A DNA stretch of 64,000 bases, from assembly GCA_020532085.1 (NCBI GenBank), contig JAJBAV010000011.1, forward strand, positions 1 through 64,000, read 5' to 3'. The notes below the pieces were generated by a model. The model was given only the letters and a program-made list of their open reading frames with translations, was not told the DNA's origin and made no database searches. Position numbers and translations under genes: made by a program. Below are positions 22,526 through 51,588 of the stretch, in pieces. Position 1 is the first letter of the stretch. Each line of letters opens with the position of its first letter. This DNA comes from Candidatus Cloacimonadota bacterium. Lineage in GTDB: Bacteria > Cloacimonadota > Cloacimonadia > Cloacimonadales > Cloacimonadaceae.

Positions 22526-24273
22526 GCGAAATCCTCCTCGTCCTCCGCGGTGGCCGTCAAATCGGTTTCCGCCTCCAGTTCGAGGACTTGGGCCGCGTCG
22601 TCCACCGGCAGTTCCTGCACCTTGTTCAGTTTTTTCTGGATCTGGCGGCTGCGGTGGCTGGCCTGTTCGATGGTGTTGGAGGCTTCCTGCAGCTTTTTCT
22701 GAGTGTGCTCCAACACTTTGCCAAATTTGCCGAATTCGTTCTTCACCGCGCTGAGGATCTTCCAGACCTCGCCGGTGCGCTTTTCGATGGCCAGGGTGCG
22801 GAAACCCAGCTGCAGGCTGTTCAGGATGGCCGCCACCGTGGTTGGCCCCACCACCACCACCTGATATTGGCGGCGCAGCTGCTCAAAGAGGGCGGGATCG
22901 CGCAGGACCTCGGCGTAGAGGCCTTCCACGGGCAGAAAGAGCAGCGCGAAATCGGTGGTCAGGGGCGGATTGAGGTATTTGTCGCGGATATCCCTGGCGC
23001 AGCCCAGGATGCGGTTGTAAAGAGCTTTGCGGGCGGTTTCCGTGGCCACAGGGTCACCGGCGTCCCAGGCCTCCACCAGGCGCGTGTAATCCTCGATGGG
23101 AAACTTGGCGTCGATGGGCAGGTAAACGCTTTCCTGGTCTTCATCGCGGCCAGGCAGGCGAATGGCGAATTCCACCACCTCGTCGCGCCGCTTGTGGGGT
23201 TTGAAATTGCGCGTGTACTGCTCCGGCGTGAGCATCTGCTCCAGGATCGCGTCCAGCTGGAATTCGCCCATCATGCCGCGGTTTTTCACGTTGGTGAGCA
23301 CCTTTTTGAGGTCGCCCACCCCGCTGGCCAGGCTCTGCATTTCGCCCAAACCCTTGTGCACCAGCTCCAGCCGCTCGCTCACCTGCTTGAAGGATTCGCC
23401 CAGTCTCTTTTCCAGGGTGTCGTGCAGCTTCTCGTCCACCGTTTTGCGCATCTCTTCCAGCTTGGTCTCGTTGTTGGCGCGGATCTGTTCCAAACGTCCT
23501 TCCAGAGCAGTTTTCAAGGCATCGAACTGCTGCTGCTGGGTGTTCACCAGGTCCTGCAGTTTGCGGGCCAGCGATTCGGCCAGGTTGTTCAGCGAAGTGC
23601 CCAGTTCCGCGCGATTCTTGGCGGCGTCGGCGTTGATCAGCTGGGTCAGCTTGTTCAGCGAAGTGCTGCTTTCCTCGCGGTTTTTACGGTTTTCGCTGTT
23701 CAGGTTTTCCTTTTGCAAATTTAGGGCGGAAACCACTTCCCGGCGGGATTCAGATTCCAGGTTCAGCATGTCTTCCAGTTTCTTTTCATTGCTGGTCCGG
23801 ATTAGCTCCAACCGTCCTTCCAGAGCAGTTTTCAAGGCATCGAACTGCTGCTGCTGGGTGTTCACCAGATCCTGCAGTTTGCGGGCCAGCGATTCGGCCA
23901 GGTTGTTCAGTGAAGTGCCCAGTTCCGCGCGGTTTTTGGCGGCGTCGGCGTTGATCAGCTGGGTCAGCTTGTTCAGCGAAGTGCTGCTTTCCTCGCGGTT
24001 TTTGCGGTTTTCGCTGTTCAGGTTTTCGTTCTGCCGGTCCAGCGAGGCCACCAGTTCCTTGCGGGTGTCGGTTTCCAGGGCCAGCAGGTCCGTGCGCAGG
24101 CGCTGCAGATCATCGCGCAGATTGCGTTCAAAGGCCTCCAATGCGCCGGAGAACCTGGTTACGGCCTCCAGCCTGTCATCCGGAGCTGAGCGTTTGCGGT
24201 AGAGCAGGATGGCGGCAACCGTTCCCAAAACCAGGATCAGCGCGCACAGGGTCAGGATCGCCCAAAGCATCAT
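22522..24273 (-). CDS. rmuC: DNA recombination protein RmuC with an internal duplication
   Basis: A 583-residue RmuC-family protein, which in other bacteria limits rearrangements at inverted repeats. It has an N-terminal membrane helix (about 5-25), a very long coiled coil (30-330) and the conserved nuclease-like domain (370-540) with PIDAKFPIEDY, LLFLPVEGLYAEVL and VVVGPTTVAAILNSL. The coiled coil contains a tandem duplication of 106 residues, nearly identical at DNA level (23495-23708 versus 23813-24026), which explains why it exceeds the usual 450-500 residues. It starts 11 bases after the S24 regulator and is probably co-transcribed with it. Confidence 0.93.
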   Translation of the reverse strand: MMLWAILTLCALILVLGTVAAILLYRKRSAPDDRLEAVTRFSGALEAFERNLRDDLQRLRTDLLALETDTRKELVASLDRQNENLNSENRKNREESSTSLNKLTQLINADAAKNRAELGTSLNNLAESLARKLQDLVNTQQQQFDALKTALEGRLELIRTSNEKKLEDMLNLESESRREVVSALNLQKENLNSENRKNREESSTSLNKLTQLINADAAKNRAELGTSLNNLAESLARKLQDLVNTQQQQFDALKTALEGRLEQIRANNETKLEEMRKTVDEKLHDTLEKRLGESFKQVSERLELVHKGLGEMQSLASGVGDLKKVLTNVKNRGMMGEFQLDAILEQMLTPEQYTRNFKPHKRRDEVVEFAIRLPGRDEDQESVYLPIDAKFPIEDYTRLVEAWDAGDPVATETARKALYNRILGCARDIRDKYLNPPLTTDFALLFLPVEGLYAEVLRDPALFEQLRRQYQVVVVGPTTVAAILNSLQLGFRTLAIEKRTGEVWKILSAVKNEFGKFGKVLEHTQKKLQEASNTIEQASHRSRQIQKKLNKVQELPVDDAAQVLELEAETDLTATAEDEEDFA

Positions 24274-25760: not shown

Positions 25761-28700
25761 CTATGGTATTTTTTGAGTACCTTTTATCAGTTTATGCTTA
25801 ACAATTGGGTGCCTGATTGCCCCACTCACGGCTATCACTTTGAAGAACAACCGGTCAGCATATTCCGTAAGGCCTTCCATAATGATCTGGGAGGATTCCA
25901 CATTTTGCAACAATGTGTCAAATGAGCAGTCGAAGTATGGTTGGTCGCTCACATGTACCTCGTAATGACTGACCGTTATGGTATTACCCATGATATCCTG
26001 AGTAACGTCATCCCAATCTATGCTCAACACTTCATTCTGCACACTGATACTCAGATGTTGTGGCACCTGAGGTTCGTATGCAGATGAGGTCATGGCTGTC
26101 ACAATCACAGGGTGTTGGGTAACCCATCCTGCTTCGTCAGTTGCTTGAAGCAGGAAGTAATAGCGTGTTGCAGGCTCAAGACCGGCAACTGTGGAGAACA
26201 CCAAACCTTCGCCTGCATAAGCCAGAACAGGATCATTTGAGTTATCCCAAAGCATATCTGCCTCGCTTACGTCCGCTTCGTTTGAATAGTAGATCATGTA
26301 ACCAGCGAAGTTTAGATCGCTGGAAGCAGACCAAGTAAGTAAGATTGTGGTATCGGACACATCCTGCACGAAGAAGCTGGAGATATCAACGGGCGGTGTG
26401 GTGTCCACTCTGAAAACCCAATCATCATCAATACCCTCAGTATTAGTTAGGCCACTAAAGCCAATAGTGCCGCAGAGGTCGGTAGCCTTGAGTTCAAATT
26501 TGTAAATGCCATCTGAAGTAACAAAAACAGGAATAATCACCCCAAACTGCGCGTTTCGCACAACATTGCTCTTAACAGGGTCTGACACTTGCCAGGCCTC
26601 TTCTGGATCGTAGACACCATTTTGGTTTTCGTCAATGCGATACATAACTGATCCATTACTAATGCCACTTGCATCAGACATCAAAGCCCCGATAACAAGA
26701 TCCGTCGTGTTGCTCCAAACAGGTAGAGGCTGACCTTCAGGCTCAGGGTTAAAGAATTGCGGCGCTGTAGTGTCGATTCGCACAAGCCAATCATCATTGA
26801 TTCCTTCAATGTTTTGGTTGCCACTGTAGCCGATATTTCCAAGGTTATCTATTGCCTTGAATTCAAAGCAATAATGGCCGTCACTAGTTAGGTCTAGCTG
26901 GATTGTAACTGTGCAGTCACTCTGGGTAGATAGCAGTTTCTGCCGTTGTATTTGTTGCCAGGACTCGTCATCGTCATAAACGCCATTTCTATTTGCATCA
27001 TATCGGAACAGCATCTCGGATATGGCATTCATGTCCTGGACTGTAGCGCCGATTATTACTGCCATCGAGTCTATCCATACTGGATCGGGCTGGTTAGCCG
27101 GAACTGGGTTAACGAATAATGGCGCTGTTGTGTCAATCCTAACCAACCAGTCGTCATTGATGCCTTCTGCATTTTGATCTCCGCTGTAACCAATATTTCC
27201 CAGAGCATTCAGAGCTCTGAATTCAAATCTGCATAGGCCATCCGCCTCAAATATTACCGACTGAAGAATATTAAGCATACAAGACGCATATTCAAAATTG
27301 TCAACATTTTGCCAAGATTCGTCAAAATCATATACTCCATTTCCGTTACGGTCATAACGGAATTCAACGCTGATTATAGCATGCGAGTTACTTACTGTGC
27401 ATCCCAAGACGACTTCTCTGGTCATCCAGTCGGGATCAGGTTGGTTTGTTGGAACTGGATCTGAGATAACTGGAGGCGTGCTATCTATGCGGACTACCCA
27501 ATCGTCAACAATGCCTTCGGATTCATTGATCCCGCTATAACCAACGTTACCATAGATATCCGCAGCCCTGAATTCAAAAGGCAACGAACCATCTGTATCA
27601 TATTCAACATCTACATTGATGTCCAAGGTATCTCTATTAGTGTCATATAGTTCAAGCCGGGAGATATTCAACCAAGTTTCGGATTCATCATAGATTCCAT
27701 TGCCGTTTTTATCATATCTGTATTGTATTGAGTTTGGATCTATCAAGTTAAAATCTGAAACTTTGCATCCTATAGAAGCTACTCTACCACCAAACCAATC
27801 AGGCTCTGGTTGTCCGGCAGGTAAGGGATCTGTAAACACTGGACCCGATCTATCAATGAATACAAAAACAGGGTCTGACATCTGCGATACGTTATTGCTC
27901 TGATCCACAGCCCTGATCGCTATCCAATACTCTCCATGTTCAAGAGGTGTGATGTTTGTTTGTGTCGTAGGCATGAATCGGAGTTCGGAATCTTGGAATA
28001 CCGACCATAATTGATCTGAATTATCGACAACACTATCGGTAGAAATATATAGTTCGTATTTCCCAAAATACGTATCATAACTCGGATCCCAACCAAGCAT
28101 CGCAGAATTGTTATCCTGTACTATAAGGTGCAAACCTCCAACGGGAGAAGGGACTTGTGTGTCTCTAACTAAACCACTAATAATGAAATTGTCTACAGTC
28201 CAAAAATTATCCTGCCCAATGTTAGCGTTAGGATTGCTGTAAAGCCAACGAAACCTCACCGAAGATTTGCCATCTAACACAGGAACTGAATAAGTTTTTA
28301 AACCAGTGTGACTTGTAGAATAAGCATCAACTACTGTGTAGCTTACGTTATTCAATGTGTACGCAAAAGAGCCAAGTCCATCACTATAAGGTAGGAATTC
28401 CGAATCAAATGAAACCTGAATTTCTTTGTAATCAGTTAAATCATGGAGAAAAGATAACATACGCTCATTAACTGTGCCCCCAACGGTAGCCATTGTCTTC
28501 ATCACGTAATTGTCATCTCCTAGCAAGATGGGTTGCCAGGGGAAAGTTGTGGTCCCAGAGTGCAGAGAACCCCATCCGTCGGGTAATACCCCTTCATTGT
28601 TAAACGTCTCATATGACATCCATGTTTCTCTTGAAGTTAAAACCACTGATTGCTCGGCAACCCACCCGCACATATCCACGGCTTCAACTGATAGAATTGT

Positions 28701-45163: not shown

Positions 45164-47593
45164 ATGTTTTTGACCCACGCCCAGCTCATTAGCGAGATCC
45201 GCCGCTGCGAATACTGCGCGGAAAAACCCTGCCAGACAGCCTGCCCCTGCGACTGCTCCCCGGCCGATTTCATGATGGCCGCGGCCCAAGGCCTGCCCTC
45301 GGATTTCAAACGCGCCGCCGGGATCATCCTCTCCAGCAATCCCCTGGGGGGGATCTGCGGCAGCGTTTGCCCCGATTACCACTGCGTTCAAGCCTGTTCG
45401 CGCGAAACTTTCGACACTCCCATCCGCATCCCCGAGGTCCAGGCCGCCATCGTGCGCAAAGCCCATGAACTGGGCCAGCTGCCGGAGTTCACGCCAGCCC
45501 TCAGAAACGGCCTCAAAGTTGCCGTCGTGGGCGGCGGACCGGCTGGGATCGGCGCGGCCGTAACCCTCACCCAGCTTGGCTATGAGGTGGATATCTTTGA
45601 CCCGGAGCCCCTGGGCGGCCAGGCAGGCCTCATCCCCTCCCGGCGTCTCGACCCCGGCATCCTCGCCGCCGATCTGCTCTTCCTCACCGAGGTTTTCCAG
45701 CTAAACCACCTTAAACAGGGCGCTCCCACCGCGAAAGAGCTTTTGGCCTCCGGCTATGCCGCCGTGGTGCAGGCCGGCGGTCTGAACGACCCCATCCGGC
45801 TCAACATTCCCGGCGATGACAGCGCCATCTATGGCCTGGACATCCTCCGCAACCCCGGCTGCTGGCTCTTTGAGGGAAAAAGGATCGCCCTCGTGGGAGG
45901 GGCCATTGCCGCGGACCAGGCCCTCACCGCCAAACTGCGCGGCGCCGCCCACGTGGAACTTATCACCCTGGAAGCCTGGCACGAAATGCCCCTCACCGAA
46001 GACGAAAAGCAAGGCCTGGTGGAAGCCGGGGTGGAATTCAGCCCCCGCACCCGGATCAGCGAGATAGTCAACTCCGCGGGCAAAACCGTGGCCATCAAAA
46101 CCAGGCGCGTCCAGCTGCCCGCCGGCGAAACCTTCCACCCTGCCAAGATCAGGGACGAAGAGGGTTCCGGCGAACTGGAGCGTCCTTTCGACCTTGTGGT
46201 GATAGCGGTGGGCAACCGCCCCATCCTCCATGAACAGGGCGAGCGGATCTTCTCCTGCGGCGACCAGGCCCATGGCCCCACCACCGTCGTCGAGGCCGTC
46301 GCCTCCGGCAAGAACGCGGCCCTGGAGGTCGATTCCGCCCTGCGCTCCAGCCACTATGAACTTCCGCCGAAGCCCACCAAAAGCTGCCTTCCCGTCTTCG
46401 GCTGGAACAAACATCCCGTGCCCCTGGAAGCCGATTTCTTCGGCCGCCCCCTCGATTCGCCCTTCCTGCTTTCCGCCGCGCCGCCCACCGACGGCTACGA
46501 GCAGATGAAGCTCGCCTACGAGGCCGGCTGGGCCGGGGGCATCATGAAAACCGCCTTCGACGGCCTCGAGATCCACATCCCGGGCGAATACATGTGGGTT
46601 TGGGGTGATAAGACCTTCGCCAATTGCGACAACGTTTCGGACCATCCCCTGGATCGCGTGTGCGAGGAAATCTCCCGCCTCATCAAAGAGTATCCGGACA
46701 AACTGACCCTGGCCTCCACCGGCGGGCCCGTCACCGGCAACGACGCCGCGGACAAGGCCGTCTGGCAGGCCAACACCAGAAAGCTGGAGGCCGCCGGAGC
46801 CATGGGCATAGAATACAGCCTCTCCTGTCCCCAGGGCGGAGACGGCACCCACGGCGACATCGTGGCCCAAAACCCGGAACTGACGGCGAAGATAATCGGC
46901 TGGGTGATGGAGATCAGCGACCCCGAAGTGCCCAAGCTGTTCAAGCTAACCGGCGCTGTCACGGCCATCCAGCCCATCATAACAGCCGTCAAAGGCGTCC
47001 TGGACAGGTATCCCGGTAAAAAAGCCGGCGTCACCCTCGCCAACACCTTCCCCTGCCTCGGTTTCCGGCATAAGGAAGGCGTCGCCTGGGATGAGGGCGT
47101 GATCGTGGGCATGAGCGGCGAAGGTGTCGTACCCATCAGCTATCTGAGCCTCGCCCGGGCCTGCGGCAAAGGCGTCACCGTCTCCGGAAACGGCGGCGCG
47201 ATGAACTACCTCGACGCGGCCAACTTCCTGGCCCTCGGCGCTTCCACCGTGCAGTTCTGCACCATTGCCGAAAAATACGGCTACGGCATCATCGCCGAAC
47301 TCAAGCTGGGCCTCTCCCACCTGCTGGAAGCCAAAAACATCCCTTCCGTGAAGGAACTGATCGGCATCGCCCAACCTGCTCCCATCACCGATTTCATGGA
47401 CCTGCCCCCCAAGACCAAAAGCAGCACCCTCACTCCCGAACTCTGCGTCCACTGCGGCAATTGCACCCGCTGCCCCTATCTGGCCATCACCCTGGACGAA
47501 GATCTCCTCCCCGTGATCGACAAGGACAAATGCGTGGGCTGCTCGCTCTGCACCAAACTCTGCTTCGCCGGAGCGCTTTATATGAGTGAGTGA
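45164..47593 (+). CDS. Dihydropyrimidine dehydrogenase-like Fe-S flavoenzyme
   Basis: An 809-residue fused oxidoreductase. Residues 1-95 hold two Cys-rich cluster motifs (CEYCAEKPCQTACPCDC and CGSVCPDYHCVQAC), as in GltD and PreT. A flavin/NAD(P) module follows from about 115 (VAVVGGGPAGIGAAVTL). Residues 415-740 are a dihydroorotate-dehydrogenase-like FMN barrel, with YSLSCPQGGDGTHGD where the catalytic Cys loop of dihydropyrimidine dehydrogenase lies. The C-terminus has two 4Fe-4S motifs (CVHCGNCTRCPY and CVGCSLCTKLC). The domain order equals mammalian DPD or fused PreT-PreA, but it is shorter than mammalian DPD and the substrate is not proven. ATG after AAGGAG. Confidence 0.82.
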   Translation: MFLTHAQLISEIRRCEYCAEKPCQTACPCDCSPADFMMAAAQGLPSDFKRAAGIILSSNPLGGICGSVCPDYHCVQACSRETFDTPIRIPEVQAAIVRKAHELGQLPEFTPALRNGLKVAVVGGGPAGIGAAVTLTQLGYEVDIFDPEPLGGQAGLIPSRRLDPGILAADLLFLTEVFQLNHLKQGAPTAKELLASGYAAVVQAGGLNDPIRLNIPGDDSAIYGLDILRNPGCWLFEGKRIALVGGAIAADQALTAKLRGAAHVELITLEAWHEMPLTEDEKQGLVEAGVEFSPRTRISEIVNSAGKTVAIKTRRVQLPAGETFHPAKIRDEEGSGELERPFDLVVIAVGNRPILHEQGERIFSCGDQAHGPTTVVEAVASGKNAALEVDSALRSSHYELPPKPTKSCLPVFGWNKHPVPLEADFFGRPLDSPFLLSAAPPTDGYEQMKLAYEAGWAGGIMKTAFDGLEIHIPGEYMWVWGDKTFANCDNVSDHPLDRVCEEISRLIKEYPDKLTLASTGGPVTGNDAADKAVWQANTRKLEAAGAMGIEYSLSCPQGGDGTHGDIVAQNPELTAKIIGWVMEISDPEVPKLFKLTGAVTAIQPIITAVKGVLDRYPGKKAGVTLANTFPCLGFRHKEGVAWDEGVIVGMSGEGVVPISYLSLARACGKGVTVSGNGGAMNYLDAANFLALGASTVQFCTIAEKYGYGIIAELKLGLSHLLEAKNIPSVKELIGIAQPAPITDFMDLPPKTKSSTLTPELCVHCGNCTRCPYLAITLDEDLLPVIDKDKCVGCSLCTKLCFAGALYMSE

Positions 47594-47714
47594 GGCAGCC
47601 CGTTCACGCTGCCCTTGATATCGCCTCGCGGAGGCTCACGGCGTGGGTCGATCACACCAGCGAAGCTCACGGCGCGGCGAGGTCGGGAGCTTACAGCTGC
47701 TCTCAAATGATCAT
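47594..47714. other. Spacer at the left edge of the repeat island
   Basis: A GGCAGC/GCTGCC hairpin just after the flavoenzyme stop (47593-47613) may be a weak terminator. No gene is seen up to the fold-back repeat. Confidence 0.4.
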
Positions 47715-48170
47715 AATTATCTCAGATTCTCAGGGCCCTGTAACTTGCCAACCCGCATCAGTTCAGGGTTTGGAGGTCAGATTCTCAAAATAACAGCACC
47801 CCCGCCCCCCTGGCGGCACGGGCACACCTGCTTGATGCAACTTGCATCAACAATGATGCTATCATCTAATGATATATACATATATACTAATATATTATTA
47901 TATAATTTTATATTTATGTTATATTTATACCTATGGTATAAAGAGCATTCCCTTACCCTGCCTTGCCTCTCTTTCCACCCGCTCCCGGTACCTGGCCTCT
48001 CTCTTTCCACCCGCTCCCGATACCTGACCTCTCTCCTTCCTCCCGCTCCAGGTACCTGGCCTGTTTCCCTCCTCCGGGGGTGGGGGTGCTGTTATTTTGA
48101 GAATCTGACCTCCAAACCCTGAACTGATGCGGGTTGGCAAGTTACAGGGCCCTGAGAATCTGAGATAATT
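47715..48170. repeat. Fold-back element with 95-bp near-identical inverted arms
   Basis: The arms at 47715-47809 and 48076-48170 are inverted copies with a single mismatch (a G for an A in the C/G-run end). They flank about 265 bp. The centre begins with an AT-rich block of about 80 bp containing mostly A and T (47860-47940) and a small stem, then a pyrimidine-rich tandem repeat. Each arm carries CAGATTCTCA twice. It may be a non-autonomous mobile element or an invertible segment; no transposase or recombinase gene lies beside it. Confidence 0.92.
47966..48062. repeat. Pyrimidine-rich tandem repeat, about 32-bp units
   Basis: Three diverged units built around CTTTCCACCCGCTCCC and GTACCTGGC lie inside the fold-back. 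The plus strand is almost free of purines outside GTACC/GATACC. Confidence 0.75.
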
Positions 48171-48209
48171 TGCGGTAATTTGATGGCGGAGGGCTATACC
48201 AATTTTTAG

Positions 48210-49106
48210 CCGGCGGTTGAAACCGCCGGAGATCGTATCCCCCTGGCCGCTGATACCCAGGAACGGTGGCCGAAGCCACCGCCTTCCGTCTCCTGTCCTG
48301 GCGGCTTTGGGCATCTTGGAGTTATAGCCGGCAGGAGTTCCCGGCGTTGTCAATTCAAACACCCACTGGGTGTCATTCCGGGGTGGGGGTTTTAACCCCC
48401 GGGGACCCGGAATCCAGACCTTACGGGTAATGCCCTGTTGGCACATCCCCCACTCCACCCCGAGTTGTCATTCCGGGGTGGGGGTTTAACCCCCGAGGTC
48501 CCGGAATCCAGCCATATCATCCACATAGCCCCGCCCTGTCATTCCGGGGTGGGGGTTTTAACCCCCGGGGTCCCGGAATCCAGCCATATCATCCACATAG
48601 CCCAAACCTGTCATTCCGGGGTGGGGGTTTTAACCCCCGGGGTCCCGGAATCCAGCCATATCATCCACATAGCCCAAACCTGTCATTCCGGGGTGGGGGT
48701 TTTAACCCCCGGGGTCCCGGAATCCAGACCTTACGGGTAATGCCCTGTTGGCACATCCCCCACTCCGCCCCGAGTTGTCATTCCGGGGTGGGGGGTTTCA
48801 ACCCCCGGGGTCCCGGAATCCAGACCTTACGGGTAATGCCCTGTTGGCACATCCCCCACTCCACCCCGAGTTGTCGTTCCGGGGTGGGGGTTTTAACCCC
48901 CGAGGTCCCGGAATCCAGACCTTACGGGTAATGCCCTCAGAGGGTGTCGATGCAGACCGCGTCTGTATCGACCCCGCCCTGATTTGGGACCGGGACTGGC
49001 TATTCCCGCCAAACCTGGATTCCGGGTCCCCGCGTGCTGGCGCACGCCTCCCCGGAATGACAGGCGTTTGGAACGGGGTGGGTGAGGGACAAGCCTTGGC
49101 GGAGGG
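48210..49106. repeat. Composite repeat, expanded copy
   Basis: Left part (48210-48420) matches 49299-49508 and right part (48920-49106) matches 49508-49693, each with only scattered differences. Between them, where the intact copy has one palindrome, this copy has an array of seven. The left part starts with the hairpin CCGGCGGTTGAAACCGCCGG. Confidence 0.88.
48371..48918. repeat. Array of seven 46-bp palindromes with two alternating linker types
   Basis: Units begin TGTCATTCCGGGG and end CCCGGAATCCAG, with a GGGGGTTTTAACCCCC centre. Starts are at 48371, 48466, 48537, 48609, 48681, 48776 and 48872. Linkers are of two kinds: a short one with CATATCATCCACATAGCCC (three times in a row, period 71-72) and a long one with CTTACGGGTAATGCCC (three times, period 95-96), in the order long, short, short, short, long, long. 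Linkers are repeated, so this is not CRISPR. Confidence 0.92.
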
Positions 49107-49298: not shown

Positions 49299-49693
49299 CC
49301 GGCGGTTGAAACCGCCGGAGATCGTATCTCCCTGGCCGCTGATACCGAGGAACGGTGGCTGAAGCCACCGCCTTCCGTCTCCTGTCCTGGCGGCTTTGGG
49401 CGTCTTGGCGTTATAGCTGGCAGGCGTTCCCGGCGTTGTCAATTCAAACACCCACTGGGTGTCATTCCGGGGTGGGGGTTTCAACCCCCGGGGTCCCGGA
49501 ATCCAGACCTTACGGGTAATGCCTCAGAGGGTGTCGATGCAGACTGCGTCTGGATCGACCCCGCCTTGACCTGGGACCGGGACTGGCTATTCCCGCCAAA
49601 CCTGGATTCCGGGGCCCCGCGTGCAAGCGCACGCCTCCCCGGAATGACAGGCGTTTGGAACGGGGTGGGTGAGGGACAAGCCTTGGCGGAGGG
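49299..49693. repeat. Composite repeat, intact copy
   Basis: A 395-bp unit. It contains a subelement at 49460-49649 bounded by inverted TGTCATTCCGGGG ends, each end itself a palindrome. The same layout is found in the expanded copy. No coding frame with protein character is present. Confidence 0.85.
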
Positions 49694-49701
49694 CTGTCTT
49701 A

Positions 49702-49816
49702 CCGCCCCAAGCCTCATCCCATTCGCCTCCCATTGACATCCCCCTGAGTTCCCGCCCAACCAACGGGAAGTAAACGGGAAGTAAATGGGATGTGAATGGG
49801 ATGAGGCTTGGGGCGG
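49702..49816. repeat. Long hairpin with an 11-bp tandem arm
   Basis: Perfect 23-bp outer arms (49702-49724 and 49794-49816) continue inward with partial pairing. The right arm is four tandem 11-mers: ACGGGAAGTAA twice, ATGGGATGTGA, ATGGGATGAGG. The same building plan is seen at 16069-16151 with a different sequence. Confidence 0.85.
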
Positions 49817-49896: not shown

Positions 49897-51588
49897 GTGA
49901 ATCCTCCTTTCGAGCTAACATTAAAGAGCATGATAGACCGGTCCTGCGAGCTTTTCAGCCGCAAGCCGGCGTTATCGAACGTGGACGGCGAACCCGTAAC
50001 CTACGGCGAGATGCGCAAGCAGCTCGACGGCCTGATGCGCATGATGAGCGAGCAGGGCATCGTGAAGGGCGACAGGGTGGCGATCCTGGGGCAGAACATG
50101 CCGAACTGGGGCATCGCCTATCTGGCCATCGCCTCTCTGGGAGCGGTGGTGGTGCCCATCCTCACGGATTTTCACGTGAACGAGATCCTGAACATTGTGC
50201 GCCATTCCGAGGCAAAGATGATCTTTGTTTCCGGAGCCCAATACGACAAGATCGGCTACGCGGACCTGGACCCCAGGATCATCCTGGTGGCGCTGGACAA
50301 CTTCGAGCCGCTGGAGCTAAAGGCCCCCAAGGACCTGATCGGCGGACTCATCTACGAGCCGCTGAAACAGCTGCAGAAACTAAGCAACCGGGCCCTCAGG
50401 GCCGTGGGGCTGATCGACGCCAAGGTGCACGAGAATGACCTTGCCTCGATCATCTACACCTCCGGCACCACCGGGCTTTCCAAGGGTGTGATGCTCAGCC
50501 ACAAAAACCTGGTGCTGGACGCCTGGATCACCACCCAGTTCCAGCCGGTGGGGGAAAAAGACCGCCTGATCTCGGTTTTGCCGCTCTCGCACACCTATGA
50601 ATGCACGGTGGGCTTCATCATTCCGATGATGGGCGGCGCCTGCGTTTACTATCTGGACAAGCCGCCCACGGCGCGGGTGCTGGTTCCCGCCATGCAAAAG
50701 ATCCGGCCCACCATGATCCTCACCGTGCCGCTGATCATCGAAAAGATCTTCAAAATGCAGGTGCATCCGCAGCTCACGGCCAATCCAGCTTTCCGCGCCA
50801 TGTACAAGCTTCCGCCCAGCCGCAAATTCCTGCACAAGGTGGCCGGCAAAAAGCTGATGAAGACCTTCGGCGGCGAGATCCATTTCTTTGGCATCGGCGG
50901 AGCGCTGCTCTCCTGGGAGGTGGAGCGTTTTCTGAACGAGGCCGGCTTCCCCTACGCCATCGGCTACGGGCTCACGGAAACGGCGCCGCTGATCGCGGGG
51001 AGCAATCCCCAGGCCGTGCGCTTCCGCTCCACCGGACAGGTGCTGGAGCATCTGCAGGTGCGGATCGAGAACCCCGCGCCCCAGACCGGGATCGGCGAGA
51101 TCCTGGTGAAGGGCGAAACTGTGATGATGGGCTACTACAAGGATCCCCAGCGCACCGCGGAAGCCTTCACCGAAGATGGCTTCTTCCGCACCGGCGACCT
51201 CGGCATCCTGCGCAAAAACCGCTACCTCTACATCATCGGCCGCTCCAAAAACGTGATCGTGGCCGCCTCCGGGGAAAACATCTATCCCGAGGATGTGGAA
51301 AGCAAACTGAACGAACACGAGGCCGTGTTGGAATCGCTGGTCCTGGATGTGGGCGGACAGCTAACCGCGCGCGTCTTCCTCAATCCCGAATACCTGGAAA
51401 AGCACTATCATCCAGATAAACTGGGCAGCGCGGATTATCAGCGGCACTTAAACATCCTCCTGGAGGAGATCAAGACCGCGGCGAATCAGAATCTCTCCAC
51501 GTTCTCGCGGGTGAAAAAGGTGATCGAACAGCGGGAGCCCTTTGAAAAGACGGCCACGCAGAAGATCAAGCGCTTCCTCTATCAGTGA
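49897..51588 (+). CDS. AMP-dependent long-chain acyl-CoA synthetase-like protein
   Basis: A 563-residue adenylate-forming ligase that activates a carboxylic acid, probably a fatty acid, with ATP and CoA. The P-loop is SIIYTSGTTGLSKGVMLSHKN. Later motifs are GYGLTETAPLIAGS (about 352-365) and FRTGDLGILRKNRYLYIIGRS, with the C-terminal Lys in KKVIEQREPFEKTATQKIKR. It fits the FadD/FAA1-like group. The start is GTG 49897 with AGGAG ahead; nearby ATG codons run into a stop. It follows the repeat island. A TTGACA-like element near 49836 may be its promoter. Confidence 0.92.
   Translation: MNPPFELTLKSMIDRSCELFSRKPALSNVDGEPVTYGEMRKQLDGLMRMMSEQGIVKGDRVAILGQNMPNWGIAYLAIASLGAVVVPILTDFHVNEILNIVRHSEAKMIFVSGAQYDKIGYADLDPRIILVALDNFEPLELKAPKDLIGGLIYEPLKQLQKLSNRALRAVGLIDAKVHENDLASIIYTSGTTGLSKGVMLSHKNLVLDAWITTQFQPVGEKDRLISVLPLSHTYECTVGFIIPMMGGACVYYLDKPPTARVLVPAMQKIRPTMILTVPLIIEKIFKMQVHPQLTANPAFRAMYKLPPSRKFLHKVAGKKLMKTFGGEIHFFGIGGALLSWEVERFLNEAGFPYAIGYGLTETAPLIAGSNPQAVRFRSTGQVLEHLQVRIENPAPQTGIGEILVKGETVMMGYYKDPQRTAEAFTEDGFFRTGDLGILRKNRYLYIIGRSKNVIVAASGENIYPEDVESKLNEHEAVLESLVLDVGGQLTARVFLNPEYLEKHYHPDKLGSADYQRHLNILLEEIKTAANQNLSTFSRVKKVIEQREPFEKTATQKIKRFLYQ

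Follow-up and report, generated by a model that had tools for sequence, protein, structure and literature searches.

Palindromic REP sequences with a CGTC tag, among them Neisseria dRS3 and Rickettsia RPE-4 and RPE-6, have been described by Di Nocera et al. (2013, PMC3733652). In the part of that paper available to us they are defined by an unpaired CGTC tag (often TGTC or CCTC), a stem of 8-9 bp with A and T at the first and second positions, a short unpaired tail that is mostly CCA, and loops mostly of 4-5 nt, with other lengths as exceptions. They are mostly arranged as head-to-head (HH) dimers and have no dedicated transposase, and the reiteration of REP clusters together with flanking DNA has already been described there; the same part of the paper makes no mention of Cloacimonadota. 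Tandem REP arrays with spacings of 112 and 72 bp and up to 12 REPs are present at several loci in Pseudomonas fluorescens SBW25 (Bertels & Rainey 2011, PMC3116915). In the literature we found nothing relevant to the motif considered here, nor to palindromic repeats in Cloacimonetes.

A tandem array of seven palindromes lies at 48371-48918 of the window, by which we mean the whole 64,000-nt stretch of DNA that was analysed, contig C11 of a 2.81-Mb Cloacimonadota draft genome in 98 contigs. It is located between two forward genes, one with Fer4_20, Pyr_redox_2 and DHO_dh domains (45164-47593) and the other an AMP-binding gene (49897-51588). The palindromes start at 48371, 48466, 48537, 48609, 48681, 48776 and 48872, with spacings of 95, 71, 72, 72, 95 and 96 bp, exactly as the earlier note had read them from the letters alone. 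The linkers, measured from after GGAATCC, are 50, 27, 27, 27, 50 and 50 nt long, which bears out its order of one long, three short and two long; the 46 bp that it gave for each palindrome is within the range found, which is 46-48 nt with the CCAG tail counted in. Tandem Repeats Finder independently reports an overlapping 72-bp array (48466-48727) and 96-bp array (48681-48937). The array is closed by one more palindrome, the eighth, which is inverted and differs in its inner hairpin, at 49015-49062; like the single-unit paralog at 49460-49649 and the genome-wide family described below, it goes beyond the earlier note. The features of the region are as follows.

48210-48370, + strand: upstream module containing a second palindrome family (GGTGGCYGAAGCCACC); further copies at 49299-49459 and on contig C19
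48371-48417, + strand: REP 1, A type, TGTC ... CCAG, with nested hairpin
48418-48465, + strand: long linker 1, beginning with the same sequence as the HH spacer
48466-48511, + strand: REP 2, with TTTAA loop, GAGG variant
48512-48536, + strand: short linker, CCCGCCC variant, the same as on contig C19
48537-48583, + strand: REP 3
48584-48608, + strand: short linker, AAACC variant
48609-48655, + strand: REP 4
48656-48680, + strand: short linker, identical to that at 48584-48608
48681-48727, + strand: REP 5
48728-48775, + strand: long linker 2
48776-48823, + strand: REP 6
48824-48871, + strand: long linker 3
48872-48918, + strand: REP 7, the left arm of the HH composite
48919-49014, + strand: inner spacer of the HH composite, with a central palindrome and complementary ends
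49015-49062, - strand: REP B, the right arm of the HH composite, inverted and with a different inner hairpin
49299-49459, + strand: second copy of the upstream module
49460-49649, + strand: paralog of the HH composite in unexpanded form, with one left REP, ~1 kb downstream of the array

Among the other repeats in the window, we note a 95-bp inverted repeat (99% complementary) around an AT-rich core that contains a tandem repeat (3x32 bp) at 47715-48170, which is possibly a separate MITE-like element and to which an element with the same ends at C19:2277-2698 is related. A 318-bp unit is present in 1.9 copies with 90% identity at 23489-24090. An Rfam search of the window returned four tRNAs and nothing else.

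The palindromes belong to a family dispersed through the genome. The sequence TGTCATTCCGGGG occurs 103 times and the strict pattern GTCATTCC-N8-38-GGAATCC 143 times, against 0 for the reversed control in each case, which excludes chance. Copies located by their stem, with the tag left out of the search, carry the 5' tags TGTC (80), CGTC (25) or AGTC (2), and a CCA tail is present in ~100 copies; these counts describe genome stretches picked for their repeats and not a random sample. The stem is 8 or 9 bp long in 204 of 211 strand-wise matches, of which the upper stem length is the sole independent test, since stems shorter than 7 or without AT at the start were excluded by the search; the AT start is directly visible in the array. 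The loop is mostly enlarged and holds a second hairpin, although short-loop copies (CGTCATTCCAGCGCAGGCTGGAATCC) are found in the same genome too. By tag, AT-first stem of 8-9 bp and CCA tail, the array palindromes match the CGTC REP superfamily, a known type of short, mobile-like bacterial repeat, from which they deviate in the loop. These features are shared with the CGTC-tagged REPs described in PMC3733652, as are the predominance of HH pairs (heterodimers included), the large clusters seen in some species and the lack of a linked transposase; the differences are the enlarged loop with its second hairpin in most copies, where theirs are mostly 4-5 nt, and the ~96-bp structured spacer of the HH composite. 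Assignment to the GTAG REP/RAYT system was considered and rejected, because the tag here is YGTC and this REP does not flank any of the Y1 genes.

The HH composite is a unit of ~190 bp in which the structured spacer separates a TGTC/CGTC-tagged REP from a second REP, inverted and with another inner hairpin. Most composites in the repeat-containing stretches read are head-to-head pairs with a spacer of ~96-100 bp (n=20 HH composites). The earlier note had suggested that the palindromes might be mobile; the family is indeed dispersed, but what is dispersed is the composite with its flanks and not the single palindrome. A general element with long terminal inverted repeats was considered and dropped, because long inverted similarity beyond the REPs, well above that in shuffled sequence, is present in just one of the 20 composites (L109), with weaker signals in two others. 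The exception, at L109:1112-1435 (G000 contig C27, ~26610-26935), is a composite enclosed by an element of ~320 bp, whose inverted ends are similar and start with GGCTCTC.

Within the window array the left arm of the composite alone has been multiplied, and the paralog ~1 kb downstream shows the same locus with a single unit. Alignment of 48210-48434 with 49299-49523 (96%) and of 48872-49106 with 49460-49693 (95%) shows that the flanks are alike on the left and on the right, so that the two window loci differ by 501 bp, which is exactly six units. Other loci have other numbers or again a single unit: C19:2226-3300, a 92% paralog of window 47663-49106, has 3 units, C19:4840 has 2, C19:3655 has ~5 and C13:41837 has 1. 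Identity among short linkers is 87% within arrays, 56% between arrays and 39% for shuffled sequence, and such homogeneity inside an array with differences across arrays is as expected from local duplication. We therefore read the array, with a probability of about 0.78, as one arm of a head-to-head REP composite that has been expanded locally in tandem, and the stepwise amplification of palindrome-plus-linker units proposed in the earlier note is well supported. Gain of units is what we infer from paralogs within one draft assembly.

REPs are already known to behave in this way, as judged from the two-spacing arrays of SBW25, the reiterated REP clusters and the arrays of two genomes of the same family, one (G017) with alternating 31- and 29-nt linkers and the other (G020) with a 42-bp period. 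The SBW25 arrays (PMC3116915) are likewise ordered tandem REPs with two spacings, but have another REP sequence, matching RAYT genes and spacings that alternate, whereas here the order is long, short three times and long twice. The BIMEs of E. coli, mosaics of REP and iREP, share with this locus the paired inverted REPs, the conserved linkers and the frequent tandem copies; they differ in tag and sequence, and here it is one arm alone that has been multiplied.

The first 21 bp of the long linker repeat the opening bases of the HH composite's inner spacer, and the remainder is C-rich and resembles leaders that precede other REPs, best of all one outside an HH composite on C13 (1 of 500 shuffles is as good), although this match covers a short, C-rich stretch and some leaders do no better than shuffled sequence. 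At the level of sequence, the long linker is shown to be a chimera of spacer prefix and C-rich leader and not an independent linker class; of the two linker classes originally proposed, the two lengths stand. A plausible scenario is that units were gained by replication slippage or by unequal recombination between direct REP-linker repeats, with stalling at the strong hairpins perhaps helping, and that the long linkers are deletion scars, in which the rest of the spacer and REP B between two tandem composites would have been lost, leaving 21 bp of spacer fused to the leader of the next REP. Slippage, unequal crossing-over and enzyme-driven duplication would look alike and cannot be told apart in a single assembly.

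A search of related genomes, a check of the kind that the earlier note proposed, found the strict pattern in 25 of 61, with a very uneven distribution and the highest count in this genome. The closest species by its AMP-binding protein (G010, of the same genus, 89% identity) has the same gene pair on one contig, ~440 bp apart, and similarity to the window resumes near 49702. No REP is present in this orthologous gap, though G010 has many composites elsewhere. The site lacks the whole 2-kb repeat island and so shows the absence of the island and not a single-step insertion of the array; gain here and loss in G010 are both possible. When the flanks of isolated composites were used to look for empty sites, G010 yielded two that were informative (C27 and C14); at the C27 site G010 has a single T-tract, which suggests that a larger element of ~320 bp with longer inverted ends was inserted, with a T-rich target duplication. 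G012 has a few composite copies, and ten other genomes of the genus have none at the threshold used. The earlier note held that the same array, unchanged in unrelated phyla, would speak against its reading; an exact-pattern scan of the nested palindrome in 84,980 species genomes, in which exact matches alone count and the genome's own records may be left out, returned a single record, a Cloacimonadota contig, which argues against wide spread in other phyla.

An alternative is that the palindromes are independently mobile and that the array grew by repeated insertion beside earlier copies, for example through a Y1 (HUH) transposase acting in trans. To our knowledge, neither a transposase nor the means of spread is known for CGTC repeats. 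There are seven Y1_Tnp genes in the genome, several of them embedded in clusters of other palindrome families, and REPs of the GTAG kind are tied to Y1 enzymes in the literature (PMC3733652; PMC8266576). We consider such insertion unlikely, because the linkers are uniform in each array and differ across arrays, because whole modules and their flanks are common to paralogous loci, and because none of the seven Y1 genes (the sole transposase class checked) is flanked by a CGTC-type REP; their flanks have other palindromes or none. This last observation is in line with PMC3733652. One Y1 gene, at G000:C23:20375-20608 (L006), has one CGTC REP ~630 bp past its stop codon and has numerous copies of a third palindromic repeat (GCAAAGCCCTGCGGGCTTTTGGTCGACGGGG) on either side. 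Another, at G000:C1:88686-89024 (L002), lies amid doublets of another palindrome family (GGTGGCTGAAGCCACC), which include a direct repeat of 135 bp, present about four times. One palindrome family known beside Y1_Tnp genes also adjoins the array, at 48210-48291 and 49299-49380.

The array could also be a structure selected at high copy number, such as an mRNA 3'-end stabiliser or attenuator, or a site for a nucleoid protein or gyrase. Its position, 0.8 kb past the stop codon of the upstream gene and between two genes in the same direction, is compatible with such a role, and roles of this kind are reported for REPs elsewhere in published abstracts. Folding is strong: the single-copy paralog as DNA forms one long hairpin with two side hairpins (z -9.05 against shuffled sequence), the whole array as RNA has z -9.2, and the array, if transcribed, would give a run of stable RNA hairpins. 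For the structured protein or RNA target that the earlier note held possible, the analysis thus shows a potential for folding. However, an alignment of 14 composites, with a consensus structure of 59 pairs that are mostly invariant, has compensatory change in 4 of the 59 and a covariation term of -0.26, so it agrees with the structure but adds little support of its own. The orthologous gap of the closest species has neither array nor island, the paralogs differ freely in unit number, and there is no terminator-like site in the array. Selection for the structure is thus improbable, and the most likely reading is an intergenic repeat, neutral or of weak function, that lies downstream of an oxidoreductase gene.

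It is very unlikely that the array is an assembly artefact covering a real locus with fewer units. The genome is a draft in many contigs and two other REP arrays lie at contig ends (C4 end, C19 start), but the units here differ by substitutions and indels whose order does not repeat, no exact repeat within the array is longer than the 121 bp of the REP 3 and REP 4 units with their linkers, and the contig runs on through both flanks. It would be highly improbable that the enlarged REPs are nested composites, in which the loop of a CGTC REP holds a palindrome related to the transposase-linked family (the GGCTGAAGCC / GGTTGAAACC core) and a Y1 enzyme mobilises the CGTC repeats; by eye, CTTCAG and TTTCAA, the cores of the inner hairpins, resemble each other on the opposite strand. 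A CRISPR array, which shares palindromic repeats at regular spacing, is ruled out because the linkers repeat within the array, where CRISPR spacers are unique, and because the repeats are dispersed genome-wide in both orientations.

The array type itself is known, though the record of REP array growth is unusually clear. One genome has the same composite at 1, 2, 3, ~5 and 7 units, while the composite is missing at the orthologous locus of a related species; together these provide a compact natural series for understanding REP array growth and linker formation. Cloacimonadota, with a nested-hairpin variant, are added to the lineages that bear CGTC-type repeats.
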